IMG/VR virus record: IMGVR_UViG_3300046522_000512
Location: 20,791-84,790 of that record
Source: a virus
Strand: one strand, 5' to 3'
Length of the DNA stretch: 64,000 bases
Below, one piece after another: positions 33,284 to 58,245 of the stretch. How positions within the stretch are numbered: the stretch's first letter is position 1; every line of letters starts with the position of its first letter. Below the pieces are notes generated by a model. It saw only the letters and a list, made by a program, of their open reading frames with translations. It made no database searches and was not told the DNA's origin. The position numbers were made by a program, and so were the translations under genes.

Positions 33284-33318
33284 CATATGGACGTAGTGAC
33301 CGGCCTGTGCGTTACACC
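33284..33318 (-). promoter_or_regulatory. Class-1 (ECF-like) promoter element
   Basis: Minus strand GGTGTAACG, then CGTCCATATGG, with exactly 17 bases between GTAAC and CGTC. The four sites of this class all show the same spacing. It precedes the 149-residue gene by about 50 bp. Confidence 0.55.
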
Positions 33319-33339
33319 TGGTCGTTTCAGGGCAGCAGA

Positions 33340-33382
33340 AAGCCCCGCTCGTCCACCGCGGGGGTGGAGCGGACGAGCGGGG
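33340..33382 (-). terminator. Terminator after the methyltransferase gene
   Basis: CCCCGCTCGTCC (33343-33354) pairs perfectly with GGACGAGCGGGG (33371-33382). On the minus strand the hairpin is followed by CTTTCTG. It lies 21 bp past the methyltransferase stop. Confidence 0.7.
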
Positions 33383-33403
33383 CCGTACGGGGGTGCGGAG
33401 CGG

Positions 33404-34081
33404 CTACGCGGGCGCGTAGGCGCGCACCAGGAGGGTGCCCAGCACTGCGGGTTCCTGCGGGGGGAGGACTTCCGCGCGCACGTCGGTGAAGCCGTGCCGT
33501 TTGAGGATGTCGGCCCACTGGTCGGCGCTGTACTGCCACCGGTACACCTGTAGTTCCTTCTCGCGGCCCTCCAGCCACTTGCCGCCCATCTGCTGCGCCC
33601 CGTACTGGCCGGTGACGGGCTCGCGGTGGGAGAAGGCGAACACGCCGCCCGGGGCAAGGCGCTTGGCGACTTGGGGGAAAAGGTGCTCGGGGTCGGTGAA
33701 CCAGACGGCGCCCCATGTCGAGTAGATGGCATCCCAGGTGCGCAGGTCGTCGTCGAGGAACGCGCACGCCTCGGCGTGGATGAACTCCAGTCCGGGGAGG
33801 CCTTCCCAGAAGGCGCGGGCGCGGGCGACCTGCACGGGGGAGAAGTCGACGCCGGTCACCTTGGCGCCGGAGCGGGTGAGGTAGGCGGCGTTCTCGCCCT
33901 CGGCCGGCCCCAGGTCGAGGACGGTCGACGGGCTGCCGAGGAGTTCGGCGCCGGGCCCGTTGTCCTTGATGCCGGTCCAGTCGAAGCGCTCGGCCGCGGG
34001 GCGGGGTTCGGCTCCTTCTCCGCGGTAGGGCTTGTACTTGTCCCAGTACTCGGCTGCGGTCTGTGGGGCTGCGCTGGACAT
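33404..34081 (-). CDS. SAM-dependent class I methyltransferase
   Basis: 225 residues. The SAM-binding motif I is VLDLGPAEGENAAYL (about 53-67), motif II is AKVTGVDFS, and the later motif region is YSTWGAVWFTDPEHLFPQVAKRLAPGGVFAFS, as in Rossmann-fold small-molecule or protein methyltransferases. The N-terminus begins TAAEYWDKYKPY, a common start in this group. Substrate cannot be told. Downstream is a clear terminator; upstream a small gap to the gene at 34232. Probably cargo rather than a virion function, although phage DNA, RNA or regulator modification is possible. Confidence 0.8.
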   Translation of the reverse strand: MSSAAPQTAAEYWDKYKPYRGEGAEPRPAAERFDWTGIKDNGPGAELLGSPSTVLDLGPAEGENAAYLTRSGAKVTGVDFSPVQVARARAFWEGLPGLEFIHAEACAFLDDDLRTWDAIYSTWGAVWFTDPEHLFPQVAKRLAPGGVFAFSHREPVTGQYGAQQMGGKWLEGREKELQVYRWQYSADQWADILKRHGFTDVRAEVLPPQEPAVLGTLLVRAYAPA

Positions 34082-34177
34082 GCGGATCCTCCGGGGGAGA
34101 GACGAACTCCAGAGGCGTCACGCTAGCGGCGGCGCTGCCGTGCCGTACGGGAAAGGAAGAAACCGTCACATACCTGA

Positions 34178-34214
34178 ACAAAGACGCCCGGGGTCGCGTG
34201 ATGCGACCCCGGGC
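34178..34214 (-). terminator. Terminator after the 34.2 kb gene
   Basis: GCCCGGGGTCGC (34185-34196) and GCGACCCCGGGC (34203-34214) form a perfect 12-bp stem with a 6-nt loop, followed on the minus strand by GTCTTTGTT. It lies 18 bp after the stop at 34232. Confidence 0.7.
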
Positions 34215-34231
34215 GCCTTACGGCCTACCGG

Positions 34232-34699
34232 TCAGTGGCAGCTCGTGCCCGGCGCGCACGGCGTGCACTTGGAGAAGTCCGCCTCCCACAGCGGCCAGTC
34301 CACGCCGAAACCGTTGTCAGCGATGACGTGGGCGGTCCGCTCGACGGAGCCGTCGTACTTGAACGCGATCTCCGGAATGTGTTCCAGGAACCGGCCGAAG
34401 TGCCGCTCGCAGAATTCCCGGTAGTTGCGGGTGTCCAGGATGAAGCCGTGGACCGCGATGTCCACGATCCGCCCGCAGCCGATCTCCAGGCGGTCGTCCC
34501 ACCGCTCCATCGCGGTCATGAGGTAGGCGACGGCCTGCCCGAACAGGCGCTCAGCCATCACCCGGTCGAACGGGTTGTCGCGCATGAGGAGGAGGATCTG
34601 GCGGTCCCACACGTCCGGGGCGACGTAGTCCCGGGGGTCGCGGGTGACCGTGTATTCCTCGCGGTCCTTCGTGATGAGCTGCGGTGTTGGTGTTGCCAT
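34232..34699 (-). CDS. Hypothetical protein of streptomycete type
   Basis: 155 residues from ATG (MATPTPQLITKDREEYTVTRD), with GGAGGG four bases upstream; an upstream in-frame extension is Arg/Pro-rich and shadow-like. Helical throughout (VWDRQILLLMRDNPFDRVMAERLFGQAVAYLMTAMERW; YREFCERHFGRFLEHIPEIAF) with a Cys-rich tail, KCTPCAPGTSCH. No family recognised. It lies in a minus-strand group with the 34.8, 35.3 and 35.9 kb genes, ahead of a divergent TPR regulator. Confidence 0.6.
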   Translation of the reverse strand: MATPTPQLITKDREEYTVTRDPRDYVAPDVWDRQILLLMRDNPFDRVMAERLFGQAVAYLMTAMERWDDRLEIGCGRIVDIAVHGFILDTRNYREFCERHFGRFLEHIPEIAFKYDGSVERTAHVIADNGFGVDWPLWEADFSKCTPCAPGTSCH

Positions 34700-34761
34700 G
34701 GTGCCCTCCGGTGTCGGATTGCGTGGCGCTACCTCCCGGCCGACGGATGACGGCCGGGCTG

Positions 34762-34834
34762 CCCGCACCACACGGGTGCGGGGGTGGAGAGGCGCCGGGC
34801 GGGGGAGACGGGGGTGCATCCCCCGGCCGGCGCC
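34762..34834 (-). terminator. Two hairpins after the 34.8 kb gene
   Basis: GGCGCCGG (34791-34798) pairs with CCGGCGCC (34827-34834), right after the stop at 34838. A second short hairpin, CCGCACC-acac-GGGTGCGG, follows at about 34763-34780. No T-runs are present, as is common for high-GC terminators. Confidence 0.45.
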
Positions 34835-34837
34835 GGT

Positions 34838-35293
34838 CTATGTGGGCCCGGCGGCCTCGGCCGTGGGCAGGTAGGTCAGGAACACGGCGCGGCGGTGGAG
34901 CTGTTCGAGCAGCAGCGCGTACGTCTCGTTGTCCGTCGTGATCGCGGCCCGGCTGATGGCGACGATGCCGTCCGCGAAGCCTTGCCCCGCGTACAGGCAG
35001 GCCTCCGTGAACCCGGACCGCTGCCCGATCTCGGGGGCCTGGCCGACGTCGGCGAACGAGGACGCCGCGAGCCGCCACCCACGGCTCCGTACGTGGTTCT
35101 CGATCAGCTCCAGATCCGCGCGCCGTTCGGCGCCCGGCTCGGCCAGCGCGTAGGGGACGACGCGGACCGTACGGCCCACAGCACGGGCCGCGGCCACGGT
35201 CTCCAACTGGAAGCGCCGTCGCACTATCTCCAGCCGCACGTCCTCCGGCCGGGGCGTGGCGGCGAGCGGCGGGTATTTGCTGGGTGTCGTCAC
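34838..35293 (-). CDS. Protein with weak resolvase-like N-domain similarity
   Basis: 151 residues from GTG (MTTPSKYPPLAATPRPED), preceded by GAGGGAAGG. The pattern RADLELIENHVRSRGWRL, then FADVG, then GFADGIVAISRAAITTDNETYALLLEQLHRRAVFLTYLP, resembles the order of strands and helices in serine recombinase catalytic domains. The catalytic serine region is absent, so it should not recombine DNA. It may be a degenerate resolvase-fold protein. It precedes two genes of a histidine-kinase-like ATPase group. Similarity is by eye only. Confidence 0.5.
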   Translation of the reverse strand: MTTPSKYPPLAATPRPEDVRLEIVRRRFQLETVAAARAVGRTVRVVPYALAEPGAERRADLELIENHVRSRGWRLAASSFADVGQAPEIGQRSGFTEACLYAGQGFADGIVAISRAAITTDNETYALLLEQLHRRAVFLTYLPTAEAAGPT

Positions 35294-35315
35294 AGTGCCT
35301 TCCCTCACGATCGGA

Positions 35316-35900
35316 TCAGGAGCTGGTGCTCAGGGACTCGCCGAGGAGTTCCTCGTGCGGGATGGGGCCCGGCTTGAACCGGTCGAGGAGATCGGCCAGG
35401 GGCCAGTGCGGCACGAGACGGTCACCGCGGCACGGGCGTAGCCAGTACGGGCCCGGCGGCTGGGTCCGCTGCAGGGGCGGCAGGGTGAGTTCGTGCGGGG
35501 CGCCCCGGCATATGCCGTAGCTGTTGTCCCAGATTGCATGCGTGCCCGGCGGCACGAGCCAGATGAGCAGATCCTGCTCCGGGTCCGCGATGACCGGGCC
35601 GCAGGCGGGGGTGTCAGAGCGTGCGCCCCGGAGGCGCTGGACTTCGTCCATGAGGTCCATGACGGCGTGGGCTTGGGGGCCGGAGGCGGTCACGACAGCG
35701 TCGAAGAACTGGCCGCCTAACGGTAACCGGAACGGGTTCCCGTGCTGGAGATCCATCAGGTTCCGTACGCGCGCGGCGAGGTCGCTCATGTCCTGTGCGA
35801 CGTCCTCGGGCGCGGCGTCCAGGGTGGGCCTGAAGTCGACGCTGCCGGGCCCGCGGCGGAGTGGCTGCGCCGCACGCTGGGGAAGGGGCGCGGGCGTCAT
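35316..35900 (-). CDS. Hypothetical protein coupled to the ATPase gene
   Basis: 194 residues from ATG (MTPAPLPQRAAQPLRRG), overlapping the ATPase stop by four bases (ATGA). It contains FRLPLGGQFFDAVVTASGPQAHAVMDLMDEVQRL, LLIWLVPPGTHAIWDNSYGICRG and a C-terminal PYWLRPCRGDRLVPHWPLADLLDRF. The paired arrangement with an HATPase-type protein is common in streptomycete regulatory clusters. No function is recognised. Translational coupling suggests it acts with the ATPase. Confidence 0.6.
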   Translation of the reverse strand: MTPAPLPQRAAQPLRRGPGSVDFRPTLDAAPEDVAQDMSDLAARVRNLMDLQHGNPFRLPLGGQFFDAVVTASGPQAHAVMDLMDEVQRLRGARSDTPACGPVIADPEQDLLIWLVPPGTHAIWDNSYGICRGAPHELTLPPLQRTQPPGPYWLRPCRGDRLVPHWPLADLLDRFKPGPIPHEELLGESLSTSS

Positions 35901-36451
35901 ACGGCATCGCCCCAGGTCGCGGGGAGAAGGGCCTGCACGGTCTTGCCGACGACCTCGCCATCGTCCTTCTGGTGGTCCCATGAGGCGGTGCCGCGGTAGT
36001 GGGCCAGCCACCACAGGCCGGGGGGCGCGGACCGGGGCTCATGGCTCTGGTTCGCGACCTGGTCGAAGTCCGGGAACTCGGGGAACGCGTCGTCGACCTC
36101 GATGAGCAGTTCGTCCGTGTCGGGGTGGGCGAGCAGCCGCAGGACAACCTTCCCGTCGGCGAAGGGCCGCCCGTGCCTCACGGCGTTGTCGACCAGGTGG
36201 GAGGCGACCCGGGCGGCGGCGTCGATGTTGCCGGGCCAGGAACAGACCGTGAGCCGCGGGCGGATGCGCAGCCGCGCGTTCGTTGCTGCTCCGCTGTCGG
36301 CGACCAGGCGGGTGCTCCATCGGAACGGGGACTGCTCTGCGGGCAGCGGAAGGAGTGCGGTCGCAGTGCCGGCCGGGCGCAGCACAGTGGCGGACGCTCC
36401 CCCGGGCGGGGGGACCGCTGGGGCTGCGGGTTCGGTTGCGCGCGGTTTCAC
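35897..36451 (-). CDS. Histidine-kinase-like ATPase (anti-sigma/RsbW-like)
   Basis: 184 residues from GTG with GGGAG upstream. After a Pro/Ala-rich N-terminus of about 40 residues, residues 45-180 show the GHKL ATPase pattern: ARVASHLVDNAVRHG (N box), VVLRLLAHPDTDELLIEVDDAFPEF (G1-like strand), then GLWWLAHYRG and GKTVQALLP. In Streptomyces such stand-alone ATPases often act as anti-sigma factors or kinases of anti-sigma antagonists. It is divergent from the TPR regulator at 36707 and coupled to the gene downstream. Confidence 0.7.
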   Translation of the reverse strand: MKPRATEPAAPAVPPPGGASATVLRPAGTATALLPLPAEQSPFRWSTRLVADSGAATNARLRIRPRLTVCSWPGNIDAAARVASHLVDNAVRHGRPFADGKVVLRLLAHPDTDELLIEVDDAFPEFPDFDQVANQSHEPRSAPPGLWWLAHYRGTASWDHQKDDGEVVGKTVQALLPATWGDAV

Positions 36452-36582
36452 GGCGGGGGGCTCCCAGGTTCATGGTTGTGCTCGGTCGGGCACTCTCTGC
36501 GAGGGCTGACACCACCGTGGCAACCGTGGGGGGACGGATCTACCCCCATATCCGCCTCGGGTTCGGGAGAGAAGTTGACGCC

Positions 36583-36614
36583 TTCCCTCGGACGTTCCTC
36601 GGACTTCCCTCGGA
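36583..36614 (+). promoter_or_regulatory. Three 11-bp direct repeats upstream of the TPR regulator
   Basis: TTCCCTCGGA at 36583, GTTCCTCGGA at 36594 and TTCCCTCGGA at 36605 lie exactly 11 bp apart, so all face the same side of the helix. This is the spacing seen in operators of SARP-type activators. They lie about 95 bp before the start at 36707, within the 255-bp region divergent from the ATPase gene. Confidence 0.5.
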
Positions 36615-36706
36615 TCGGTAAGTACCGTCTGTAGAGGGCATCTTGAGTGAGACAAGGTTCTACCGTCGGATCAGTGACGTGCAGTCGGATGTTCGAGGAG
36701 GAAGCC

Positions 36707-38029
36707 GTGTTGCTCTTCCGGAAGGCGCTGGAGTTACGCGGCATACGCACCCCTGATGACTTCCTCCCGGAGTACCGGAAGGTGGCCGAGCGGCTCGGGT
36801 CGAGGGACGCGGAACCGGCCCTGAAGACCGTCGAAGGATGGATCTACGAGGGGCGGAAGCCGCAGCGGGTGTTCCGGCCGGTCATCGTCGAGATGCTGGG
36901 TTACACCATCGAGCAACTGTGGTCCCCGGAGGACGCCGCGCCGTACTTCGCTGCGCAGGCAGACACGTCACCGACTGCACCCCATGTCGAGTTCGGCATG
37001 GACCTGATCGAGATGAGAAGGACGGGCACGATGGCAGTACGACGCGCGAAGGATTTCCTGCTCGGGGCAGACCGGGACCGGGTGGGCGACGACACGCTCG
37101 GCGTGCTCGACGACGAGGTGCGGCGCCTGGTCGCCGAGTACCCCCGGGTCCCGCTCCCGACGGTGTGGCCCGACTTGCTGGAGACCCAAGAACAGGTCTT
37201 CCGGCTCCTGGAAGGCGGCCGCGTCCGGCCCTCCCAGCTCCGCGACCTGAACGTCGCGGGCGCCATCCTGAGTTTCTTGGTCGCCAAGGGCTTCAACGAC
37301 ATGCAGAACCCCCACGAGGCCATGACGATGACCCGGGTCGCAGCAGCGTGCGCCAGGGACGCCGAACACCCCGGGCTCATCGCCCTCACCGACGGACTCA
37401 AGTCGCTCATCGCCTACTGGGCCGGGCGGCCCGCGGACGCCTACCACTACGCCGGCCAGGGTGCCGAGAGCGCCGTCAACGTGCAGGGGACAGCGGGCCT
37501 GTGGCTCCTCGGCCTCAAGTCGCGCGCCGCCGCGGTGCTCGGCGACGAGGAGACCGTGCGCGAGGCGAACCGGCAGGCCGCCGACCGGAGAGAGCGCGTC
37601 GTCCCGGACGACCTGGACGAGCTCGGCGGACTGTTCACCTACAGCCGCGCAAAGCAGCTCTATTACTCGGTGGAGGCCGAAGCGCTCCTGGGCCACGGCA
37701 GTGCGCAGCTCGCCGCGCAGGCCGAGGAAGCCGTCGACGCGTTCGCCGACCCCAACGCCCCTGACTGGGCATTCGGCGACCTCGCAGGCGCACAGTGCGA
37801 CCTCGCGCTCGTCCGCCTCTACAGCAGCGACGCGGACGGCGCAGCGACCGCCATCCGCCCCGTGCTCAACCTGCCCGCCTCCCACCGCAACAACGGGATC
37901 ATCGTCTCCGCCAGTCGCGTCCGCTCCGCACTGGATACCGGCCCCGTGCGGACAGCTGCGGTCGCGCGTGACCTGCGCGCGGAGATTGAGGCATTCCCGG
38001 GCGCCAGGCCTGCCCTGCCCCGCGGGTAG
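36707..38029 (+). CDS. TPR-type regulatory protein with N-terminal DNA-binding-like domain
   Basis: About 440 residues from GTG (MLLFRKALELRGIRTPDDFLPEYRKVAERLG), chosen because GAGGAGGA lies 5 bases upstream; an ATG six codons earlier is an alternative. Residues 1-75 look like a helix-turn-helix region (TVEGWIYEGRKPQRVFRPVIVEMLGYTIEQLW). The remainder is helical repeats (FNDMQNPHEAMTMTRVAAACA; PADAYHYAGQGAESAVNV; LYYSVEAEALLGHGSAQLAAQAEEAV), typical of streptomycete TPR regulators that respond to partner proteins or peptides. It ends just before the GNAT gene. The 11-bp repeat array upstream suggests it is itself regulated. Confidence 0.7.
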   Translation: MLLFRKALELRGIRTPDDFLPEYRKVAERLGSRDAEPALKTVEGWIYEGRKPQRVFRPVIVEMLGYTIEQLWSPEDAAPYFAAQADTSPTAPHVEFGMDLIEMRRTGTMAVRRAKDFLLGADRDRVGDDTLGVLDDEVRRLVAEYPRVPLPTVWPDLLETQEQVFRLLEGGRVRPSQLRDLNVAGAILSFLVAKGFNDMQNPHEAMTMTRVAAACARDAEHPGLIALTDGLKSLIAYWAGRPADAYHYAGQGAESAVNVQGTAGLWLLGLKSRAAAVLGDEETVREANRQAADRRERVVPDDLDELGGLFTYSRAKQLYYSVEAEALLGHGSAQLAAQAEEAVDAFADPNAPDWAFGDLAGAQCDLALVRLYSSDADGAATAIRPVLNLPASHRNNGIIVSASRVRSALDTGPVRTAAVARDLRAEIEAFPGARPALPRG

Positions 38030-38038
38030 AGTCCGGGC

Positions 38039-38581
38039 ATGCACCCGGTCATCCGTTCCAGCAAACGCCTCGACCTGCGGGAGCTCGCCCTCACGGACGT
38101 GGGGGCGTTGCACGCCATCTACGGCAGCCCCGTCGCGACCGCACACCTGTCGTTCGAGCCCCGCAGCCGAGAGCAGGTCGAACAGATCGTGGCCCGGTCC
38201 GTGGTGGCCGCCGCGGAGACACCCCGCACCGAGTACGCGCTCGCCGTCATCGAGAAGGAGACGGGCGAGCTGATCGGGTCCGGTCGTCTGGCCCTCGATC
38301 CCCACCAGCAGCGCGGAGCCACCATCGGCTTCGCGCTGCGCCCGCAGTCGTGGGGACGGGGTTACGGCTTGGAGACGGTGCGGCTCCTTCTCGGCCTCGG
38401 CTTCAACGACCTCGACCTGCACCGTATTTGGGGCGCCCGTGCCCCGCTCAACGTCCCTTCGGCGCGCACCATGGCGGCCGCTGGCATGGTCGAAGAGGGC
38501 GTCATCCGCGGGCACGTCCTGAAGGGCGGAGGATGGCGGGACTCCGTCGTGCACGCAATCCTCGACCGCGAGTGGGACTGA
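38039..38581 (+). CDS. GNAT acetyltransferase (RimJ/RimL type)
   Basis: 180 residues. SKRLDLRELALTDVGALHAIYG is the usual N-terminus of RimJ/RimL-type acetyltransferases. The acetyl-CoA region is GATIGFALRPQSWGRGYGLETVRLLLGLGF (Q/RxxGxG/A-like WGRGYG), followed by LHRIWGARAPLNVPSARTMAAAGMVEEG and a C-terminal WRDSVVHAILDREW. The substrate is unknown. No Shine-Dalgarno is present; TAGAGT lies 6 bases before the ATG, so the gene appears leaderless. Convergent with the recombinase, which ends 8 bp downstream. Confidence 0.85.
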   Translation: MHPVIRSSKRLDLRELALTDVGALHAIYGSPVATAHLSFEPRSREQVEQIVARSVVAAAETPRTEYALAVIEKETGELIGSGRLALDPHQQRGATIGFALRPQSWGRGYGLETVRLLLGLGFNDLDLHRIWGARAPLNVPSARTMAAAGMVEEGVIRGHVLKGGGWRDSVVHAILDREWD

Positions 38582-38588
38582 CGAACGA

Positions 38589-40881: not shown

Positions 40882-40935
40882 GTGTACCCCTCCCCTGGTT
40901 GCCGGTTATTCCAGGCAGAATACCCGATAAGGCTG

Positions 40936-41024: not shown

Positions 41025-41070
41025 CAGGTGAGTCTTAGCTGAATCTAGGCTCATTTCTCCTGGAGGCGAT

Positions 41071-42269: not shown

Positions 42270-42270
42270 C

Positions 42271-42936: not shown

Positions 42937-43530
42937 GTGGGGTTCCGCATCAGCGAGAAGGACTTGGACCGCTTCCCCGGTCTCCGAGCGAAGTACGAGG
43001 CGGCCAAGGAAGCGGCAGCACCTTGGCCGCCGCCGCCGCCGCCCGCCAAGCCGAAGCGGCAGCGCAAGCCGAAGGCCGAGGGCGCGGCGAGCAGCTCGGC
43101 GTACGTGGAGTGCGACGTCGCCGCGGAGGCGGTCGGCGCTCGGCACTGGGTGCTCGAACTACCGCCGGTCGAGCTCATCAACGCCAACGAGGTGCGTGGC
43201 TGGCATTGGCGCAAGGAGCGGGACGTGGCCAGGGCGATACGCGCGGCCGCGGCCGTCGCTGCTCGCGCGGCTGGTGTTCCGCGGCTGACCCGGGCGCGGG
43301 TGCTGTACCTCGTGCACCCGCGGGCGCGTACCCGCGTCTTCGACCCGTCGAACTGGTCGCTGTCGGCGAAGGCCGCGGTGGACGGGCTGTCGGACGCCGG
43401 GCTGTGGAGCGACGACAACGCCGCGGTGGTCACGGGCGTTGATCCCCGGGCGGGATCGCGTCAGAACGGTGCAAACATACGGATGTCCCTGGTCATCATC
43501 GACCAGGGGGACAGGGAAGAAGAGCAGTGA
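42937..43530 (+). CDS. RusA-like Holliday junction resolvase
   Basis: 197 residues from GTG, with CCAGGAGG 7 bases upstream. A Pro/Lys-rich N-terminal extension (28-50) precedes the RusA-type core: WVLELPPVELINANEVRGWHW, ARVLYLVHPR, and the acidic active-site region FDPSNWSLSAKAAVDGLSDAGLWSDDN, with Asp136, Asn139, Lys145, Asp149 and Asp159/160. RusA enzymes dimerise and cut four-way junctions, which helps replication or debranching before packaging. The N-terminal extension is unusual. Overlaps the next gene by four bases. Confidence 0.7.
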   Translation: MGFRISEKDLDRFPGLRAKYEAAKEAAAPWPPPPPPAKPKRQRKPKAEGAASSSAYVECDVAAEAVGARHWVLELPPVELINANEVRGWHWRKERDVARAIRAAAAVAARAAGVPRLTRARVLYLVHPRARTRVFDPSNWSLSAKAAVDGLSDAGLWSDDNAAVVTGVDPRAGSRQNGANIRMSLVIIDQGDREEEQ

Positions 43531-44135
43531 CGAACCAGATGAGCGAGACGGCGGCCGCCGCTTTCGGGCGCGCAAACGATGCGGTGGATCCCGAAGACCT
43601 GGACGACCACCTGTTCGGCATCGTCGAGAAGGCCGCCGGTTCTCTGCTGCGCGACCGGCACCGGCGAGACTTCCCGCATGCCGCGGTGGGTGACCTGCTG
43701 GCCACGGTGGCGGCGCTGCGGGACGTGCTGGGCCTCTCCTCGACGCCGACAGCCGTCGAGGTCATGGCGTGGGAGCAGCGGCAGGGCGCGGCCAAGCATG
43801 CGGCGAGCGCCGTGCGGGTGGACTACCCGGTGACTTTCCTCGACGGCCCGTACGAGGGCGTGGAGATGACGCTGGAGGGCCCGTCGGGGGCGTACCCGGA
43901 GCCGGGGGACCCGTTGGCGTGGCTGGTGGAGGAGAAGGGCGGTTGGGCGGCCGGTCCGCTCGCGTACGTGCCGCTGCCGGTCGAGGGCCCGCTGTACACC
44001 AGCGTGCGGTACAAGCGGGAGGATGCGCCGCTCCCGGATGGCCGGTGGCGGTACCGGATGCGCACGGACGAGCCCGCTCCTCCGGAGGGTTCCCGGCCGC
44101 CGGCTCGCTGGTTGGCCCGGGGCGCATCGGTGTAA
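43527..44135 (+). CDS. Hypothetical protein, two-part
   Basis: 202 residues from GTG overlapping the RusA stop. Residues 1-95 are helical (DLDDHLFGIVEKAAGSLLRDRHRRDFPHAAVGDLLATVAALRDVLG). Residues 98-190 are beta-rich (YPVTFLDGPYEGVEMTLEGP; AYVPLPVEGPLYTSVRYKRE; GRWRYRMR). The second half resembles small proteins found in many streptomycete phage and plasmid gene blocks, but function is unknown. Confidence 0.6.
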   Translation: MTNQMSETAAAAFGRANDAVDPEDLDDHLFGIVEKAAGSLLRDRHRRDFPHAAVGDLLATVAALRDVLGLSSTPTAVEVMAWEQRQGAAKHAASAVRVDYPVTFLDGPYEGVEMTLEGPSGAYPEPGDPLAWLVEEKGGWAAGPLAYVPLPVEGPLYTSVRYKREDAPLPDGRWRYRMRTDEPAPPEGSRPPARWLARGASV

Positions 44136-44163
44136 CGATCACCCAGGCCATCACGTCTATCCC

Positions 44164-44231: not shown

Positions 44232-44495
44232 ATGAGCACAGCCACCATGGCCCGCGCGGACGTTCTGCGTGAGGCGTCGCTGACGATCTGTGGCCGCCGC
44301 GAGGGCAAGATGCGGGCCTGCAACTCCTGTCTGCGGAAGGCGGACGCCGTGGTGCACCTGGTGGCCACACCGGTGCTGAACACGGCGCTCCTGCCGCAGA
44401 TCGCGGACATCATCTGTGGTTCGGCCGGTCACCCCTGCGTGGACTGCTGGGAGAAGGCCACCACCCTGCTCTTGGAGCTCCGACGTGACCACTGA
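44232..44495 (+). CDS. Small Cys-rich protein
   Basis: 87 residues from ATG with GGGAG upstream. MRACNSCLRKADAVVHLV and IICGSAGHPCVDCWEK provide two cysteine pairs that could form a zinc site. It overlaps the next gene by 11 bases. Function unknown; the set of three Cys-rich proteins in this block (42271, 42650 and this one) is notable. Confidence 0.65.
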   Translation: MSTATMARADVLREASLTICGRREGKMRACNSCLRKADAVVHLVATPVLNTALLPQIADIICGSAGHPCVDCWEKATTLLLELRRDH

Positions 44496-45317: not shown

Positions 45318-47339
45318 GTGCGTACCCTCCGTTCGTCCACGTCGAATGACTCGATACTGGCGCGCGCCGCACTCGGCACCACTGTGCGCGCCGTTGGCCG
45401 CGTCGTGTGCCGCTGGTGCGCACGACGCCGATACGAACTCGCCCCTGTGGCCGCCTCCGCCACGCTGACGGGGCTTGCCTGGCTGCACCACCTGAACGGT
45501 GTGAGCGCCCCGGAGAACCTGGCGTACGGCGCGGCAACTGCCGCTACGGCCGCGATCACGGGGCTCGCACTGAAGCACAAGCACAAGTCGCTGGCGACGG
45601 CGGCCGCGGGCGCAGCAGTCATGTGCAGCAACACGTGGATCGCCGCCGGGCTCGGTCCGTCGATCCCGTCGCTGATCTCCGCGGGGCTGATCACCTGCGG
45701 CGCCTACATCCCCTACATGAAGTGGCTGACGCGGGCCCGGCAGGACCGGCTCAAGCTGCAAGTGGATGCGGCGAAGGCCGGCGTGGGTGCGGAGGCACTC
45801 GGCACCGGCACGGGGACCGCGCTGACCGGGGCGAGCCCGCAGGAGACCAAGCTCATGACCGCCTTGGTGGCGCTGCTGGGCATCCCCGCGGTGGACGTGG
45901 TCGCGCTGGAGCACACGCTCTACGGGTGGCGCGCCGTGGTCGTTCTGCCAGCGGGCAAGAACACGTCTCCGGCGAAGGTGATCGCGCGCCGCGAGCAGCT
46001 GGCCGCGAACCTGGGGATGCCCGGGAAGCTGCGCCTGGCCCGCGGGTTGGAAGACAACGAGCTCGTGGTGTCCATGTACGAGACGGACCCTCTTAGCGAG
46101 ACGCTGTCGTGGCCTGGCCTGTCGACGACCACGTGCCTTGAGCCTGCTGTCCTCGGCATGGATGCCGACGGCGAGCAAGTGCTCGTGAACCTGCTGTACA
46201 ACCACGTGCTGATCGGTGGCGCGTCGGACAACGGCAAGTCGTCGCTGCAGTCGGTGCTGCTCGCGTACGTGGCCGCCTGCGTGGACGCTGAGGCGGTCCT
46301 GATCGACCTGAAGCCGGGCGCGGTCGAGCTCGGCCCGTGGGCGCCGACGGCGCTCGCGCTGGCCGACAGTCCCACTACGGCGCTGCACACGCTTGAGTGG
46401 CTGTGGGGGGAGGTGCAGCGGCGCGGCGAGCTCATGAAGGAGTGGGGCCGCAAGGCGGGTAAGCCGGTGAAGAAGTGGATCCCGGGCGAGCACGGCCCGG
46501 CCATCTTCGTGTTCATCGACGAGCTTGCCGAGCTGATGCGGCAGCTCCCGAACGCGGCGAAGCTCCTCGAATCGCTGCTGCAGGTCGCCCGGTTCACCGG
46601 CATCACGCTGGTGTGCGCCACTCAGTCCCCTTCGAACCGTGTGTTCGGCGGGAACACCGACGGCCGGCAGCAGTACCAGGTGCGTATCGGGCTCGGCGCG
46701 AAGGAGTCCACGACCGCGAACCTGATCTTCGGTCCGGGCGCGTACGGGGACGGCTGGTGCCTGGACGAGCTTGAGGGCCCGGGGTACTTCCTGCGCTGGG
46801 ACCGTCAGAACCAGCTTCCGGTGATCTCCCGTGCGTTCTACATGACTGACGACGAGATCGGGGCGGCTTCGCACCGCTACGCCCGTGGCGCGGAGGGCCA
46901 GGAGGGCGCCCGGGAGCACCCGCAGGACGACCACGAGCCGGACGACGACCCGACGCCGCCGAAGCCGCCCACGCCGCCTTCTGGGGGCGGCCCGGGTGGC
47001 GGGCGTCCGGTGATCTTGCGCGCGGTGCCGACGTTCCCGGACGGGTCGCCGATCGCGGACGAGCGTCACCTCGCGCTGTGGAAGGCGGTGGAGGCGGCCG
47101 GGCACGACGGCATCACCGTCGACAACCTGGTGGCGCTCGGGCTGCCCGAGTTCAACGCCCGGTCGTCGGTGAACGGCCCGCTGTCGCAGTGGCGCAACCG
47201 CGGATGGGTCGAGGAGGCGGGGAAGCAGGGCCGGGCGATGGCGTTCCGGCTCGCCCCGCGTAAGGCGATGTCTGTACAGGCCGGGGTCGACGCCTCCGCC
47301 ACGAGCGAGGAGAGCGCCGCATGCCCGGTGAGTCTGTGA
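45318..47339 (+). CDS. FtsK/SpoIIIE-family DNA translocase, TraB-like
   Basis: 673 residues from GTG 45318, chosen for GGGGAG 6 bases upstream; an earlier in-frame start would run through the inverted repeat. N-terminal hydrophobic helices (44-62, 68-86, 94-133) are followed by the motor domain: LIGGASDNGKSSLQ (Walker A, 299-309), AIFVFIDELAELM (Walker B, 395-407), LVCATQSPSN, and a C-terminal winged-helix region about 590-670 (WKAVEAAGHDGITVDNLVALGL). A Pro/Asp-rich linker separates the two. In Streptomyces plasmids and AICEs such TraB proteins pump double-stranded DNA to the recipient; in phages FtsK-like proteins are less often present. The next gene starts inside its end. Confidence 0.85.
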   Translation: MRTLRSSTSNDSILARAALGTTVRAVGRVVCRWCARRRYELAPVAASATLTGLAWLHHLNGVSAPENLAYGAATAATAAITGLALKHKHKSLATAAAGAAVMCSNTWIAAGLGPSIPSLISAGLITCGAYIPYMKWLTRARQDRLKLQVDAAKAGVGAEALGTGTGTALTGASPQETKLMTALVALLGIPAVDVVALEHTLYGWRAVVVLPAGKNTSPAKVIARREQLAANLGMPGKLRLARGLEDNELVVSMYETDPLSETLSWPGLSTTTCLEPAVLGMDADGEQVLVNLLYNHVLIGGASDNGKSSLQSVLLAYVAACVDAEAVLIDLKPGAVELGPWAPTALALADSPTTALHTLEWLWGEVQRRGELMKEWGRKAGKPVKKWIPGEHGPAIFVFIDELAELMRQLPNAAKLLESLLQVARFTGITLVCATQSPSNRVFGGNTDGRQQYQVRIGLGAKESTTANLIFGPGAYGDGWCLDELEGPGYFLRWDRQNQLPVISRAFYMTDDEIGAASHRYARGAEGQEGAREHPQDDHEPDDDPTPPKPPTPPSGGGPGGGRPVILRAVPTFPDGSPIADERHLALWKAVEAAGHDGITVDNLVALGLPEFNARSSVNGPLSQWRNRGWVEEAGKQGRAMAFRLAPRKAMSVQAGVDASATSEESAACPVSL

Positions 47340-49880: not shown

Positions 49881-49889
49881 GCTCGGATC

Positions 49890-50147: not shown

Positions 50148-50197
50148 CCGCCGGGAGCAGCATGGACACCGCGGCGGGGCGGTTCGGCCGCGGCGTG

Positions 50198-50737: not shown

Positions 50738-50739
50738 CG

Positions 50740-51177: not shown

Positions 51178-51326
51178 GTGTCGCCCTTCGCGCTGGATCT
51201 TCGTGACGATCCAGTCTTGCAGGGCACGCGCGCCGTCCTGCCCCGAATGCCTCAAACAATCATGTGCGCAGCCCGGTTCACGGGGCGGCGGGCTCCGGGC
51301 CCCGGAGCTCGTCGAGGTGCAGAGGA

Positions 51327-51941: not shown

Positions 51942-52044
51942 GCGAGCAGTGTTGCGGCTGCTCGCTGGCCTGTGAGGGGCTGTGTCGGTACTGGAACAGA
52001 ACGCAGACGTGGCCGGGACTGTCGTCGGCGGCCGCGCGCTGAAC

Positions 52045-52908: not shown

Positions 52909-53037
52909 GCGGGACAGCGTACGGGCACAGGCGCTGACGCTGGGCGGAAGCGGGTCAGGGGGCCATGAAATGGCCGTGCCCGAGGTGTTCTTTGCAGTTC
53001 CGGCACCGGAGTACGCCCGGCAGGCACGGGGGCGGGT

Positions 53038-53220
53038 TCATGCGGTGATCTTCCGTATCTGTTCGGGGCTGAGCGCGAAGGGCTGCCGGATGCCGCGCCG
53101 GGCTTTGCCGGGCGAGTAGATCGGCCAGTAGAACGGTCCGAGGACCAGGCGGCCGCCGTCGTGGCGCCACTCGTACTCGCGGCCGAACAGGACGGTGACG
53201 CGGCCGTGGTCGCGGCTCAT
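53038..53220 (-). CDS. Small protein (60 aa), unknown
   Basis: MSRDHGRVTVLFGREYEWRH then GGRLVLGPFYWPIYSPGKARRGIRQPFALSPEQIRKITA. Starts at an ATG overlapping the upstream stop (ATGA). Beta-rich with aromatic residues and a basic C-terminus. No family recognised; coupled to the 53.2 kb gene. Confidence 0.6.
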   Translation of the reverse strand: MSRDHGRVTVLFGREYEWRHDGGRLVLGPFYWPIYSPGKARRGIRQPFALSPEQIRKITA

Positions 53221-53564
53221 GCCGCTGGTTCCTGTATCTCGAAGATGGTCTGGCCGCGCTGGATACGGAAGGCGTGTCCGCACGCCGGCAGTGTGAGCAG
53301 CGCTGCGAGGTGCCGAACGGGGACGGTGAACGGCGCGCGGGGGCGGGCGGCGAAGGAGTCGTACTGCCACCCGTCGACGGGTTCGAGGCAGTGCGGGCAC
53401 CACGCCGCGGTGATGGGGCCGTCCTTGGGGCCGATGCCGTGGACGGGGCCGGGGAGGTCGATGCCGTCGGCGTAGCGCTGGATGGCAGCGGTGTCGCCGA
53501 GGAGTTCCCAGCCGTCCGGGGCGAGGTCGGCCAGGGCGGTGGAGCGTTCAGTGGTGACGGGCAC
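53217..53564 (-). CDS. Hypothetical protein with CxxC motif
   Basis: 115 residues from GTG (MPVTTERSTALADLAPDGWELL) with GGAAG upstream; a longer frame reading into the flanking inverted repeat is less likely. AAWCPHCLEPVDGW may bind metal, and PVRHLAALLTLPACGHAFRIQRGQTIFEIQ follows. Coupled to the 60-residue gene downstream. Unknown function. Confidence 0.6.
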   Translation of the reverse strand: MPVTTERSTALADLAPDGWELLGDTAAIQRYADGIDLPGPVHGIGPKDGPITAAWCPHCLEPVDGWQYDSFAARPRAPFTVPVRHLAALLTLPACGHAFRIQRGQTIFEIQEPAA

Positions 53565-53586
53565 GGCGCAGCTTCCTGAGTGAGTG

Positions 53587-53762
53587 GGGTTACAGAACAA
53601 AGCGGTTCTCGGCCTCAGACACGTCGGCCGGGTGCGGGTGCCAGGGGGTCCGGGCCGATACGGTTCGTAGCGCGACGGTTCGGTCCGTTCCGACCCGGAC
53701 CCCGGACGGGCCCGCAGGGGGCCGAGGGTCGCTGTGGTGATTGTCGCTTTGTTCTGTAACCC
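53587..53762. mobile_element. MITE-like element with 18-bp terminal inverted repeats
   Basis: GGGTTACAGAACAAAGCG at 53587-53604 and its exact complement at 53745-53762 enclose 140 bp. Total length 176 bp, no open transposase. The right arm lies inside the reading frame of the gene ending at 53590, and the left arm supplies its last codons and stop. No convincing target-site duplication is visible. It may be a miniature inverted-repeat element, or a segment that can invert and swap the C-terminus of the gene. Confidence 0.5.
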
Positions 53763-54195
53763 GTCGATCCGGCTTCGCGGCCCAGCCGGGGTGGGTGCAG
53801 GCGCACATCTGCGCCGCGGCCGTCTCGAAGCCCTCGGGGGCGCCGATCAGGCCCACCAGCTCCCACAGGACCGGGCAGTGCCGGGTGTGGTGGTGGACGC
53901 CGAACAGCGGGTCGGCCGCGAGCGGCGCGAGTCGGCAGGCGAGCTTCACCATGCGTTCGAGGTGGGTGGGTTCGCTGTCGCGGCGCAGCGCCCGCCACAG
54001 TGCCCAGCCCTCCCGGTAGGCGTCCGCGGTGGGGTAGGCGTAGCGGTGGGGGCCCGCGGTGCGCTCCGCGAGCTCGTCGAGCGTGTACGGGCGCAGGCTG
54101 TCGGTGTGGGCGGGGTCGTAGCCCCACGCGATGAGGCAGTCCGGTCCGTGGAGGCGGCATCCGGTGCGCGGCGGGAAGGCGGTGTGACGGGTCAC
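53590..54195 (-). CDS. Hypothetical Cys/His-rich protein with element-derived C-terminus
   Basis: 201 residues from GTG (MTRHTAFPPRTGCRLHGPDC), with GGAGG 6 bases upstream. Helical core (YTLDELAERTAGPHRYAYPTADAYREGWALWRALRRDSEP; PLFGVHHHTRHCPVLWELVGLIG; CACTHPGWAAKP). The final 56 residues are encoded within the inverted-repeat element at 53587-53762, so the natural protein probably ended near CTHPGWAAKPDRR. Preceded by a class-1 promoter-like element. Function unknown. Confidence 0.6.
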   Translation of the reverse strand: MTRHTAFPPRTGCRLHGPDCLIAWGYDPAHTDSLRPYTLDELAERTAGPHRYAYPTADAYREGWALWRALRRDSEPTHLERMVKLACRLAPLAADPLFGVHHHTRHCPVLWELVGLIGAPEGFETAAAQMCACTHPGWAAKPDRRVTEQSDNHHSDPRPPAGPSGVRVGTDRTVALRTVSARTPWHPHPADVSEAENRFVL

Positions 54196-54305
54196 GGGCG
54201 GCCTCCCCAGTTCTGTCGGATGCGGGTGGAGAGCGCGGCCGCCGGGACCTGGTGCCCTGACCTCCGCTAGGCAGATTGCAGGCCCGGCGGCGCGCTCCGT
54301 CACCA

Positions 54306-54338
54306 CATAGACGAGGTGGGGAGCGCAGGCGTTACACC
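54306..54338 (-). promoter_or_regulatory. Class-1 (ECF-like) promoter element
   Basis: Minus strand GGTGTAACGCC, then CGTCTATGTGG, 17 bases between GTAAC and CGTC. It lies about 110 bp before the start at 54195 and overlaps the end of the upstream gene. Confidence 0.6.
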
Positions 54339-55087
54339 TGCTCGCCGCGCACCTTGCGGCGGACCGGTTCCAGGTCGGCGACGGGGATCAGGCCTTGCAG
54401 GGGCAGGCCCGCCTCGCGCCATGCCTGCTGCGCGCGGGCCTGGTCTCCCCCGGCGTCGCCGATCAGGAGTTGCCGGGCGACGTCGTTGGACAGCGTCCCC
54501 TCCCCGTGGTCGACGAGCCTCACGACCATGCGGACGTTGTCGAACTTGGTGCCCGCCTTGGGCTCGTTGGCCCGGTAGACGAGCACCCAGCGCCCCACGA
54601 GGGACTGGGCGCGCTCGATCATCTGGCGGCCGGGGATGGTGGTGTCCTGCTGCGTGCGGATCGTCTCGGGGACCCCGGACGGGGGGATCAGCGTGAGCAG
54701 GCCGCGGCGGCTGGACTCCTCGATCTCGACCTTCTCCAGGAACGCGGCGAAGGGGTGGGAGGCGTCGAGGGTCTGCATCCGCTGCTCGACCTCGCGGGCG
54801 GTGAAGGCGAGCTCCACGGCGAGATCCTGCACGCGGGCCAGCCAGAGGCGGGGGTCGACGCCGGAGGCGGGGGCCGGGCCGGCTGCCTGTGCTGCGGCGG
54901 CGACGAGAGCGGTGTAGTCGGTCACGGGAGCCATCATCACCTGTTCGGGAGCGGCGAGTTCGCGGGCGTGGATGGCGAGGATGCCGTCAGCGACCTTGGC
55001 GGCCCGGGTGCGCAGGCTGTCGGTGGAGTTCCCGGCGATGAGTCCGATGATCTGCTCGCGGGCGCAGCGGGGGCCGTAGTGGCTCAC
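54332..55087 (-). CDS. Hypothetical protein, possibly nucleic-acid related
   Basis: 251 residues from GTG overlapping the upstream stop (GTGA). N-terminal half helical (CAREQIIGLIAGNSTDSLRTRAAKVADGILAIHARELA; WLARVQDLAVELAFTAREVEQRMQTL). C-terminal half beta-rich (RRGLLTLIPPSGVPETIRTQQD; LVGRWVLVYRANEPKAGTKFDNVRMVVRLVDHGEG), then GDQARAQQAWREAGLPLQGLIPVADLEPVRR. The beta-rich half could be an OB-like binding domain, but I cannot confirm it. Second gene of a class-1 operon. Confidence 0.6.
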   Translation of the reverse strand: MSHYGPRCAREQIIGLIAGNSTDSLRTRAAKVADGILAIHARELAAPEQVMMAPVTDYTALVAAAAQAAGPAPASGVDPRLWLARVQDLAVELAFTAREVEQRMQTLDASHPFAAFLEKVEIEESSRRGLLTLIPPSGVPETIRTQQDTTIPGRQMIERAQSLVGRWVLVYRANEPKAGTKFDNVRMVVRLVDHGEGTLSNDVARQLLIGDAGGDQARAQQAWREAGLPLQGLIPVADLEPVRRKVRGEQV

Positions 55088-55359
55088 GCGGGCACCTTGG
55101 GGTCGCGGCGGTAGCGCCACAGGGGGGTGCCGAAGAAGTCGGCGGCCTCGGGGTCCCGGTAGTAGACGACCACGCGGAAGGACGTGAGCAGCGCCTTCAC
55201 GGTCTCTTCCGCGGGCAGGAGTTCGCCGTCGTCGTCGAGGAGGCGCAGCGGGGTGTTCTCCGCGATCCGCAGCGCGGGCGTGGGGTTGGTGGGGTCGCCG
55301 CAGATGGTGACGTGTCGGCCGTCGCAGGCTCCGCCGACGAGTTCGATCTCCATGCACAT
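55084..55359 (-). CDS. Small protein heading a class-1 operon
   Basis: 91 residues from ATG with GGGAG 8 bases upstream. MCMEIELVGGACDGRHVTIC is a short beta-rich N-terminus of a type frequent in actinophage genomes (IELVGGPCDG-like), then VKALLTSFRVVVYYRDPEAADFFGTPLWRYRRD. Unknown function. A class-1 promoter-like element lies about 80 bp upstream. Confidence 0.65.
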   Translation of the reverse strand: MCMEIELVGGACDGRHVTICGDPTNPTPALRIAENTPLRLLDDDGELLPAEETVKALLTSFRVVVYYRDPEAADFFGTPLWRYRRDPKVPA

Positions 55360-55440
55360 GGTGCTGCTCCCGTACGGATCGGGCCGGGAAATGGTCGGCG
55401 CCCGAAGGAGGTGTCCGGCCGTCCCTCGGGCGCGTCACCA

Positions 55441-55473
55441 GATAGACGGGGTGGGTTGGAGATCCGTTACACC
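55441..55473 (-). promoter_or_regulatory. Class-1 (ECF-like) promoter element
   Basis: Minus strand GGTGTAACGG, then CGTCTATCTGG, 17 bases between GTAAC and CGTC. Divergent from the leaderless plus-strand gene at 55517. Confidence 0.6.
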
Positions 55474-55516
55474 CGGAGGGCGTGACAGATGGCGCCGTGC
55501 CCTCGTTGGATGCGGT

Positions 55517-55876
55517 GTGACTGAAACCAATGCCGCCGCGAATCTCCTCACCGACGCCGAGGCCGCCGCTGACTGGCTGCTCGGCTTCGCCCCGCCGGAG
55601 ATGCCCGAGGATGACCGGGCGCAGTTCCGTAGCGAGTACATCGCTGCGTTCTCCGGTTGCTCCGCGGATGAACGTGGGGGCCTGGCTGAGCGCTTCGTAA
55701 GTGAGGGCGTGGACAAGCCTCACGTGCTTCCGGTGCTTGTGGGTACGGTCGCCGATGCCGCGGTCGAGTTCGGCCGGGCGTTCGCTGCTCTCACGCCGGA
55801 GGAGCAGGCCCGCACGGGTATCTCGGTGCGGCCGGGGACGCTGAAGTTCATGCGTCAGCTCGGGCCACGGGACTAG
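55517..55876 (+). CDS. Small helical protein divergent from a class-1 operon
   Basis: 119 residues from GTG (MTETNAAANLLTDAEAAADW). Almost all helix: AAADWLLGFAPPEMPEDDRAQFRSEYIAAFSGC, LAERFVSEGVDKPHVLPVLVGTVADAAVEFGRAFAAL, then GISVRPGTLKFMRQLG. A GTGACA, 18 bp, TTGGAT promoter ends 6 bases before the GTG, so it is probably leaderless and host-transcribed. Convergent with the large terminase. Unknown function. Confidence 0.65.
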   Translation: MTETNAAANLLTDAEAAADWLLGFAPPEMPEDDRAQFRSEYIAAFSGCSADERGGLAERFVSEGVDKPHVLPVLVGTVADAAVEFGRAFAALTPEEQARTGISVRPGTLKFMRQLGPRD

Positions 55877-55895
55877 ACGCGGCCTGGTCGCCGGG

Positions 55896-57662
55896 TCAGG
55901 CGATGATGCCGCGGCGTGCGGGGCCGGGCTCGTAGATGGCCAGGAGGATGGCCTCCGCGCGGTCGGGGCTCTTCATGCCGCGGGCCTTCATCTGCTTCTT
56001 GGACTCGACCACGGCGTGCCCGCCGGCGTTGTTGCCGAGGTTGGGGGTGGTGAGCTGAATGCCGGCCTCGCGGTCGACGCGCAGGCGTAGGCGGCCGATG
56101 CCGGTCGACGGGTCGGGCTGCAGCAGTGCGCGGGTGGCGAGCCACATCTCGTCGCGCTTGCGGAAGGGCCGCATGGGCGCGCCCGGGTCGTCGCGCTCGG
56201 GGGACTCGGAGACCATGACGCCGAAGATGACGGAGTGGTGGCCGCCGTTCTGGCCCCACACTTCGAGCATGCCGACGGCGCCGTGGCCGAGGCCGTTCTT
56301 GTCGACCTTGACGTGCACCTTTGCGGGGGAGCCGAGGGCCTTGGCGAGGCGTTCCGCGGCGTGGATCTCCTCCAGGATCTTCTTGGCGACCTTGACCTGA
56401 TTGTCGTTGGCGGCGCCGGATGAGTGGTGACGGTGTTCGACGACGTCGCCGACGATGCGGTAGATGGTGAACTCGTCGCCGCCGTCTGCTGCGACGTCGA
56501 CACCGAGGCGCACCCAAGCACCGCGCTTGACGGTGTGGGTGGCTTTCTCGCCTTGGAGGCCGAGGTCGCACAGGCGGACCCAGCCGGGCCCGGTGGGGTC
56601 TTCGGCGCGCTGCGCGTCTTCCACCCACGTGGTGGGGATGACCTTGCCGCCGCCGCCCTTGGGGAACTTGGCGTGCACCTTGGCGATGACGTACGGGTGG
56701 TCTTCGCCGTACTCGCGGATGGTGCGGTCGATCCAGTCCTGTGTGGGCAGGTGGTCGGCGAGGGAGTGGCGTTCCCTGGCGGGCGGGCAGTCCAGGCAGT
56801 AGGGGACCCGTTCCTTCGTGATCGCCGGTGAGTCGTAGGTGGCGATGGGAATGGTGGCGGTGCCGGGTTCCTCGGGGTTGTCGCCCTCCTCACACATGAT
56901 CTCGAACCAGGAGCGTGGGTCGTCCATGGCGGGGTTGCCGATGGCGAGCATGCGGGAGTCGCCGACGAGGAGGTTGTTGGTTCCGTTGCCGATGCTCCTC
57001 GCGATACCCCCGGCCTCGTCGACGATGATGAGGAGCTTCGGGTTTCCGTGGATGCCCTGCATCGAGGCTTCGTCGTGGGCCTGCGCGGTGAAGCCGTACG
57101 CCACGCGCACGTCGTTGTTCCACTGGTCGGGGATCTTCCACTGGACTTCGTCGCAGAAGCCGGGCAGGCCCGCGCGGGCGACGCACTTGCGGATGTGGGG
57201 CCAGAGCTGGTTACGGACCTGCCGGAAGCGGGTGGCGGTGGTGACCACGAGCATGGTGCCGACGGGATTCGTCGCCCCAGCCCAGGCGCAGAGCCTCCCT
57301 GCTATGTATGTCTTGCCGACGCCGAACCCGGCGGGGACCATGACGCGCGTGTAGTGCGGGACGGCGTCCACGATGTCCCGCTGCTTCGACCAGATGCTTT
57401 CGCCGAGGCAGTCCTCGATGAACCCGGACGGGGTGTCGGCCCACAGGCCGAAGAGGGTGCCGGTCTCGCGCTCGACCTCGGCCAGGACGTGAGCGAGGTC
57501 GTTGCCGTCGAGGGTCTTGAGCGCCGCGCGGCGCACCGGGATGGGGGCGCGCAGCAGGCTGTCGGCGATGCTGGACGCTTCTTTGGAGCGGACGCCGGAG
57601 CGGTTGTCGACGACGTGCTGTGCGGCAGCCGTGGCGGGTGTCGGTGGGGTCGGGGCGGCCAT
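55896..57662 (-). CDS. Terminase large subunit (packaging ATPase-nuclease)
   Basis: 588 residues. ATPase domain: VPAGFGVGKTYIA (Walker A, 109-121), KLLIIVDEAGG (Walker B with catalytic Glu217), and IGNPAMDDPRSWF (coupling motif). Nuclease domain: VRLGVDVAADGGDE (Asp389/391), VKVDKNGLGHG (Asp454) and SPDRAEAILLAIY (Asp567), an RNase H-like acidic triad. It pumps and cuts concatemeric phage DNA at the portal. Start ATG lies at the transcript start predicted by a class-2 element, so it is probably leaderless. It is more than 23 kb from the portal gene. Confidence 0.9.
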   Translation of the reverse strand: MAAPTPPTPATAAAQHVVDNRSGVRSKEASSIADSLLRAPIPVRRAALKTLDGNDLAHVLAEVERETGTLFGLWADTPSGFIEDCLGESIWSKQRDIVDAVPHYTRVMVPAGFGVGKTYIAGRLCAWAGATNPVGTMLVVTTATRFRQVRNQLWPHIRKCVARAGLPGFCDEVQWKIPDQWNNDVRVAYGFTAQAHDEASMQGIHGNPKLLIIVDEAGGIARSIGNGTNNLLVGDSRMLAIGNPAMDDPRSWFEIMCEEGDNPEEPGTATIPIATYDSPAITKERVPYCLDCPPARERHSLADHLPTQDWIDRTIREYGEDHPYVIAKVHAKFPKGGGGKVIPTTWVEDAQRAEDPTGPGWVRLCDLGLQGEKATHTVKRGAWVRLGVDVAADGGDEFTIYRIVGDVVEHRHHSSGAANDNQVKVAKKILEEIHAAERLAKALGSPAKVHVKVDKNGLGHGAVGMLEVWGQNGGHHSVIFGVMVSESPERDDPGAPMRPFRKRDEMWLATRALLQPDPSTGIGRLRLRVDREAGIQLTTPNLGNNAGGHAVVESKKQMKARGMKSPDRAEAILLAIYEPGPARRGIIA

Positions 57663-57700
57663 GGGCGCACCATGCGCAGCCGGGGCCGCTAGTGTCCCGG
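57663..57700 (-). promoter_or_regulatory. Class-2 phage promoter-like element before the large terminase
   Basis: Minus strand GACACTAGC, then CATGGTGCGCC starting 17 bases after GACAC; the terminase ATG follows at 57662, one base closer than in the three other leaderless cases. Confidence 0.6.
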
Positions 57701-57710
57701 GATCGGCAGG

Positions 57711-58040
57711 TCAGGGGCAGTATCCGCAGACGGCTGTGTTGCGGCCGCACTCCTCGGTGAGGTGGTAGTCGCCGCGGCATCCGCAGTCGCAGCCGCCCAC
57801 CAGTCCTTTGGCGACCATGCGGTGCATCTTCGCGAGGAACAGCCGCTCGGGGATGGGGCCGGTGGTGGCTTCGAGGGCGGCCTGTACGTCCCAGCGCATG
57901 CGCCAGGGCGCGGCCGCGGGCTCTCCGGTGCCCGGGGTGTCGCGGATGGCGTCGCACACCGCGGCGTCGGGGATGTCCTTGCACTGCATGCGGCGGCCGC
58001 CGACGTGCCGGATGGTGGGGCGCTCGATGGTGGTGGTCAT
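57711..58040 (-). CDS. Cys-rich small protein behind a structured leader
   Basis: 109 residues from ATG (MTTTIERPTIRHVGGRRMQC), with CCAGGGA upstream. GGCDCGCRGDYHLTEECGRNTAVCGYCP ends the protein with eight cysteines and a histidine, probably two zinc sites. Its transcript starts at a class-1 element about 170 bp upstream and passes through two very stable hairpins, so expression is likely controlled in the leader. Confidence 0.65.
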   Translation of the reverse strand: MTTTIERPTIRHVGGRRMQCKDIPDAAVCDAIRDTPGTGEPAAAPWRMRWDVQAALEATTGPIPERLFLAKMHRMVAKGLVGGCDCGCRGDYHLTEECGRNTAVCGYCP

Positions 58041-58061
58041 GACCGTCCCTGGAATGTCGGC

Positions 58062-58188
58062 GGCCCCCGGGTTCGTCGTCCGCGTCTCCCAAGCCCCGGG
58101 GGGAGTAGGGCTTGGGAGACGCAGGCGACGGGCCCGGGGGCCGGTCTGAAGGGGTGGGCGGCCCCCGGGGGGGGTGGGGGCCGCCCCA
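58062..58188 (-). other. Highly structured 5' leader of the 57.7 kb gene
   Basis: GCGTCTCCCAAGCCC (58082-58096) pairs perfectly with 58108-58122, and the flanks GGCCCCCGGG...GTC and GAC...CCCGGGGGCC (58062-58142) extend the stem. A second hairpin with an 11-bp GC stem lies at 58157-58188. Both lie between a class-1 promoter and the start codon. Attenuator, protein-binding leader or RNA switch are possible. Confidence 0.55.
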
Positions 58189-58211
58189 GGGTGGGTGACT
58201 GCCTTCACCGC

Positions 58212-58245
58212 CATAGACGTAGTGAGGCGCCCAGGTGTTACAGGT
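58212..58245 (-). promoter_or_regulatory. Class-1 (ECF-like) promoter element
   Basis: Minus strand CTGTAACACC, then CGTCTATGG, 17 bases between GTAAC and CGTC. Lies just before the structured leader and just after the stop of the 58.3 kb gene. Confidence 0.6.

Follow-up and report, generated by a model that had tools for sequence, protein, structure and literature searches.

Five bipartite promoters in an actinophage genome fragment, very probably read by a phage-encoded sigma factor

Introduction

Bacteriophages phiEco32, through its gp36 protein, and 7-11 carry a sigma factor resembling those of the extracytoplasmic function (ECF) type, which sends the host polymerase to a few phage promoters, structural ones included (PMC4331800, PMC4281155, PMC7881722). 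Among host factors, sigma-E of Streptomyces coelicolor uses sites of the form AAC-N16/17-CGTCT (PMC6767563), and BldN has been reported to read CGTAAC-N16-CGTTGA (PMC2375139). Here we analyse a 64,000-nucleotide stretch, hereafter the window, covering bases 20791-84790 of the 84,790-bp virus record IMGVR_UViG_3300046522_000512. The window contains five sites of the form TGTAAC-N17-CGTC(T/C)A. These are very probably promoters of a single phage regulon, read by a phage-encoded ECF-type sigma factor whose gene would lie in an arc missing from the record.

Results

The motif occurs four times on the minus strand (33288-33316, 54308-54336, 55443-55471 and 58214-58242) and once on the plus strand (44131-44159). 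Exactly 17 bases separate TGTAAC from CGTC at each site; the second box reads CGTCCA at the first position and CGTCTA at the other four. In 300 dinucleotide shuffles of the window, TGTAAC-N17-CGTC turned up 0.04 times on average and at most once, against five observed, and the mean was 0.00 for the form with (T/C)A. When spacers of 5 to 40 bases were compared, only 17 was enriched. All five sites have a gene in the same direction downstream, its predicted start codon 57-176 nucleotides (nt) away. The initial annotation had listed four sites as (G/C)TGTAAC-N17-CGTC(T/C)AT. All of these are present, on the minus strand and at the exact spacing, but the plus-strand site at 44131 had been missed; the TGGTGA tail said to follow often is borne out in part, GGTGA following three of the five sites. 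At this plus-strand site the upstream gene (43527-44135) uses as its stop codon the TAA inside the -35 box (44131-44136).

Searches with PF04542 and PF08281 found no sigma factor in the window, as had been noted initially, or in the remainder of the 84,790-bp record. The large terminase of the window is 73% identical to gp1 of Streptomyces phage Gilgamesh (MN234216, 129 kb). In reverse orientation, the record runs colinear with Gilgamesh over about 66 to 1 kb, plus about 128-121 kb on the wrapped map. Part of the window was also compared with named phages at the nucleotide level, and nothing matched. Since the colinearity extends to only part of Gilgamesh, the 84.8-kb record is, judged by this comparison, incomplete, the counterpart of the Gilgamesh 66-121 kb arc being missing. 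In Gilgamesh that arc holds gp92, annotated as an RNA polymerase sigma factor, and the absence of this arc accounts for the lack of a sigma gene in the record.

A terminase search yielded 17 related virus contigs (here and below, counts refer to the collections searched, and genes were called with a simple codon model that had been trained on Gilgamesh). The closest long contigs, G001-G006 and G014, with terminases 80-92% identical by best segment, are referred to as clade A. All seven contain the motif, for a total of 34 sites with a spacer of 17 or 18 (the window's record being counted in) and a consensus of G-x-TGTAACG, a variable stretch and CACTC-CGTC-(T/C)AT; the strict -35 TGTAAC was seen at every clade A site examined. 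The motif is clearly related to gene starts in these relatives: 30 of the 34 lie between genes, no more than 260 nt ahead of one on the same strand, as compared to 5.4% of random positions. A sigma gene is visible in six of the seven contigs. For the seventh, the fragment G003, another contig of the same source genome (L214) has the sigma gene and one site. Sigma gene and promoters share a genome in G001, G002, G004, G005, G006, G014 and NZ_CP107821, a circular clade A element of 132.6 kb in Streptomyces sp. NBC_00536, where six sites precede gp83, gp44/portal, gp16/FtsK, terminase and two further operons. Placement before structural and packaging genes was confirmed for the gp44/portal run and the terminase.

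NZ_CP107821 is one of six Streptomyces plasmids of 126-133 kb (with CP109288, NZ_CP122459, CP108533, NZ_CP108441 and NZ_CP070374; circular in five of the six records) that carry a common phage core region comprising the sigma gene, SSB, lysin and ParB/ParA. The family therefore appears to live as phage-plasmids.

The sigma factor of the clade A relatives is, by its domain content, an ECF-type (group 4) protein of about 200 amino acids (aa) with regions 2 and 4 present. Against TIGR02937, the general ECF family model (cut-off 42.9 bits), the G006 protein scores 79.6 and that of Gilgamesh 93.3. Pfam sigma regions 2 and 4 were found in Gilgamesh gp92, and region 2 scored above cut-off in 13 records. 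The best curated-model relatives of the clade A factor are TIGR02952, the BldN subfamily, and PRK09648 (ShbA-SigD-like); it scores 102.4 bits against a cut-off of 206.45 for the former, outside membership, and 95 against 209 for the latter. A Foldseek search with a low-confidence structural model built on clade A sequences alone (mean predicted local distance difference test score 63.8) matched SigH, SigE and BldN.

The sigma gene occupies one syntenic place in clade A, in clade B (Gilgamesh and its nearest kin) and in G013. It is followed by a gene of about 130 aa and usually one of about 540 aa; then come, on the opposite strand, SSB, lysin, TerS and ParB, and after these the promoter-headed gp83 operon. 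This place falls in the arc missing from the window's record. In an out-of-sample search with the sigma factor alone, five added records had the motif 5.8-6.1 kb from the sigma start; two of these are near copies of G005, and a sixth record, L134, stops short of that position.

No copy of the TGTAAC-N17-CGTC promoter was found in the 260 nt upstream of clade A sigma genes; on infection or induction the sigma gene would be transcribed by other means. About 240 nt upstream of the sigma genes of G002, G004, G006 and G014 lie repeated GTAAC boxes of the form GTAACnGTTnCGTAAC; these are possibly an operator controlling the sigma gene or its divergent neighbour. Clade B sigma genes (Gilgamesh, G008, G009, G011) are preceded by a GGTTATGCT element resembling a housekeeping extended -10. 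Separately, G006 contains a second, unrelated sigma-like gene (117013-117561, minus strand); an off-consensus TGTAAC-N17-CGTC match before it, at 117644, was set aside as probably due to chance.

The exact clade A motif is absent from Gilgamesh and its nearest kin. This was first read as evidence against conservation, a view reversed when the same genes turned out to carry a form particular to these phages, with a different -10. A count of over-represented spaced word pairs in clade B picked up codon-periodicity signals only. Promoters were compared across lineages at the orthologous genes gp83, gp44 and TerL. The -35 stays TGTAAC or CGTAAC in all lineages compared. The -10 region reads ACTC-CGTC-(C/T)A with a spacer of 17 in clade A; mostly TGA or TGT before CGT(A/T), with a spacer of 16 and one of 17, in clade B; and G(C/G)C(G/A)-CGT(C/A)T with a spacer of 17 in clade C (NZ_CP122459, NZ_CP108441 and NZ_CP070374). 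Comparing the -10 flanks gives an identity of 0.65 for different genes of one clade, 0.15 for the same gene in different clades and 0.17 for unrelated pairs; thus, the -10 depends on which lineage the element belongs to, rather than on the gene. Sigma factors of one clade share about 65% identity; those of clades A and B share 33% in region 2 and 42% in region 4. The modest excess in region 4 agrees in direction with a -35 that is kept and a -10 that changes.

Two further patterns were seen among these promoters. In clade A, CGTC is invariably followed by C where the promoter belongs to gp44 or gp83, whereas T follows at those of the terminase and FtsK-like operons and at almost all of the rest; clade B has CGTT at gp44 and CGTA elsewhere. 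This conserved, gene-specific base may tune the strength or timing of the promoter. In addition, promoters at G001:91978, G004:34945, G005:14839 and G006:10122 (all N18) and at G014:105570 (N17) stand 34-70 nt upstream of a gene coding for about 110-155 aa, and this set, mostly with 18-base spacers, is possibly a distinct sub-class.

An alternative is that a host ECF factor of the sigma-E, BldN or ShbA type reads the promoters, phage genes thereby tracking envelope stress or development of the host. The sigma-E and BldN sites cited above do come near the phage form, and some cross-recognition by sigma-E is possible. The overlap is nonetheless partial, as comparison with these consensus sequences showed, and neither accounts for the phage pattern. 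At -35 the sites displayed for sigma-E read GAAC or CAAC in place of TAAC. We searched 296 genomes of the genus Streptomyces with the strict pattern TGTAAC-N13-ACTCCGTC and obtained three matches, all in this phage family. Two share a contig in the one genome of the set that has a clade A sigma factor; the third lies in a remnant element of this family, directly upstream of a gp44 homologue. In none of the 296 genomes was the strict motif found before host genes. Its confinement to the phage family argues strongly against a host regulon. Furthermore, related phages of the same host genus carry another -10 at the same genes, which a shared host factor would not explain. We consider this alternative improbable. 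Streptomyces genomes G020-G023, intended as phage-free controls, could not serve as such, as their loci lie in related phage-plasmids of other lineages; even so, each has only 0-1 match to a looser pattern.

Even less likely is an operator role for the motif, serving a phage repressor or activator. Its recurrence before several operons would suit an operator, but it is non-palindromic, its two boxes keep a set distance (17, rarely 18), it always points the same way with respect to the gene, and a lineage change affecting the -10 box alone fits recognition by a sigma factor. Chance matches, which the G+C content of the window (about 70%) and the commonness of CGTC alone might have favoured, are refuted by recurrence at orthologous genes in independent records, in line with the shuffles and the unique 17-base spacing.

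Three of the five sites in the window head operons with recognisable products, amending the initial description of all as of unknown function. The 33288 promoter, whose orthologue is found at the same gene in all clades, precedes the gp44 homologue (32784-33233, minus strand, 71% identical to Gilgamesh gp44) and a structural run that includes a portal-MuF fusion protein homologue (29749-32208, minus strand, 56% identical to Gilgamesh gp46 over 457 aa). This same-strand run comprises eight genes over 29 kb. A short opposite-strand pair then interrupts before the remaining head and tail genes. Also in this part of the window, a giant open reading frame (about 8,147 aa; 4408-28851, minus strand) is the counterpart of the 4,624-aa Gilgamesh gp48. 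The 44131 promoter, with the same site in G001, G002, G003, G004 and NZ_CP107821, is followed on the plus strand by a gp16-like gene (44232-44495; gene model with counterparts in relatives) and an FtsK/SpoIIIE-like translocase (45447-47339; PF01580, E 5.7e-14; 43% identical to Gilgamesh gp10). The 58214 promoter, with orthologous sites before the terminase of relatives, heads a small minus-strand gene (57711-58040; phrog_5135, function label unknown) and the large terminase subunit gene (55896-57662, minus strand). The other two sites do head genes without a Pfam or PHROG match, all on the minus strand: the 54308 promoter precedes 53590-54195 (gene model without match in either database) and following genes, and the 55443 promoter precedes 55084-55359 (gene model without PHROG match) and 54332-55087.

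Discussion

The form of the sites, their placement and their conservation in relatives support the initial proposal of ECF-type promoters at operons forming one regulon. Of the two sources then suggested for the sigma factor, a gene elsewhere on the element is strongly favoured, the syntenic core gene falling in the missing arc and the -10 tracking the sigma lineage; a host factor is not, given the near absence of the strict motif from chromosomes. The search of the rest of the element advised at that stage drew a blank within the record; relatives have the gene at its syntenic place. Three points weigh against reading by a phage-encoded factor: the record does not show a sigma gene for the window's own phage; the excess of region 4 over region 2 identity between clades A and B is modest; and, because promoters and sigma factors both follow phage phylogeny, their co-variation is strong circumstantial evidence of recognition, short of proof. 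That the window's phage carries the sigma factor, that the factor binds the sites, and the timing and order of events are what we infer from sequence comparison.

Under a phage-encoded regulon, the sigma factor would take the host core polymerase to the promoters, domain 4 reading TGTAAC and domain 2 reading CGTC(T/C)A. The structural, terminase, FtsK-like and gp83 operons would then be activated jointly, most likely at a late lytic stage or when the phage-plasmid is induced. A more tentative idea, which we hold with less than even confidence, is that orthologous ECF factors shifted their -10 specificity and spacer and all promoters of the regulon shifted alongside, giving mutually insulated late-gene switches, perhaps because several elements meet in one host.

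For a large and little-studied group of Streptomyces phage-plasmids, such a regulon would supply a control system and predict which genes are co-switched. The family also offers a natural experiment in sigma-promoter co-evolution, with syntenic sigma factors and, at one set of orthologous genes, a -35 that stays the same and a -10 that takes at least three lineage-specific forms; the residues that set ECF -10 specificity are thereby made directly testable. The pairs are, in addition, candidate sigma/promoter combinations that Streptomyces chromosomes do not use.

Searches of the open literature turned up no account of a regulon of this sort in actinophages. A phage-encoded ECF sigma regulon is known in kind from phiEco32; what is new here is a bipartite promoter in at least three lineage-specific forms. 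As in phiEco32, an ECF-type sigma factor is carried by the phage (seen in relatives) and putative promoters stand before structural genes. The phiEco32 promoters read tAATGTATA, an extended -10 without a recognisable -35, whereas the present ones have both a strict -35 and a strict -10, set 17 bases apart; examined for the phiEco32 type, every site proved to have a TGTAAC -35. Furthermore, phages of the phiEco32 kind are virulent enterobacterial podophages, as opposed to temperate Streptomyces phage-plasmids, in which several lineage-specific -10 forms occur at orthologous promoters. Gilgamesh is closer, with a colinear genome, the related terminase, a syntenic sigma gene and promoters before the same genes, but its sigma factor is about 34% identical, its -10 is CGT(A/T) and its spacer mostly 16. 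Among host factors, the BldN and ShbA-SigD-like proteins provide the nearest curated models and BldN is reported with a GTAAC-type -35, yet the clade A factor falls far below their cut-offs and the BldN -10 is CGTTGA. Finally, the sigma-E regulon of S. coelicolor (PMC6767563) shares an AAC-type -35, a CGTCT-type -10 and a spacer of 16 or 17, but differs in the bases before AAC and drives host envelope genes, while the phage motif was not found in host chromosomes.

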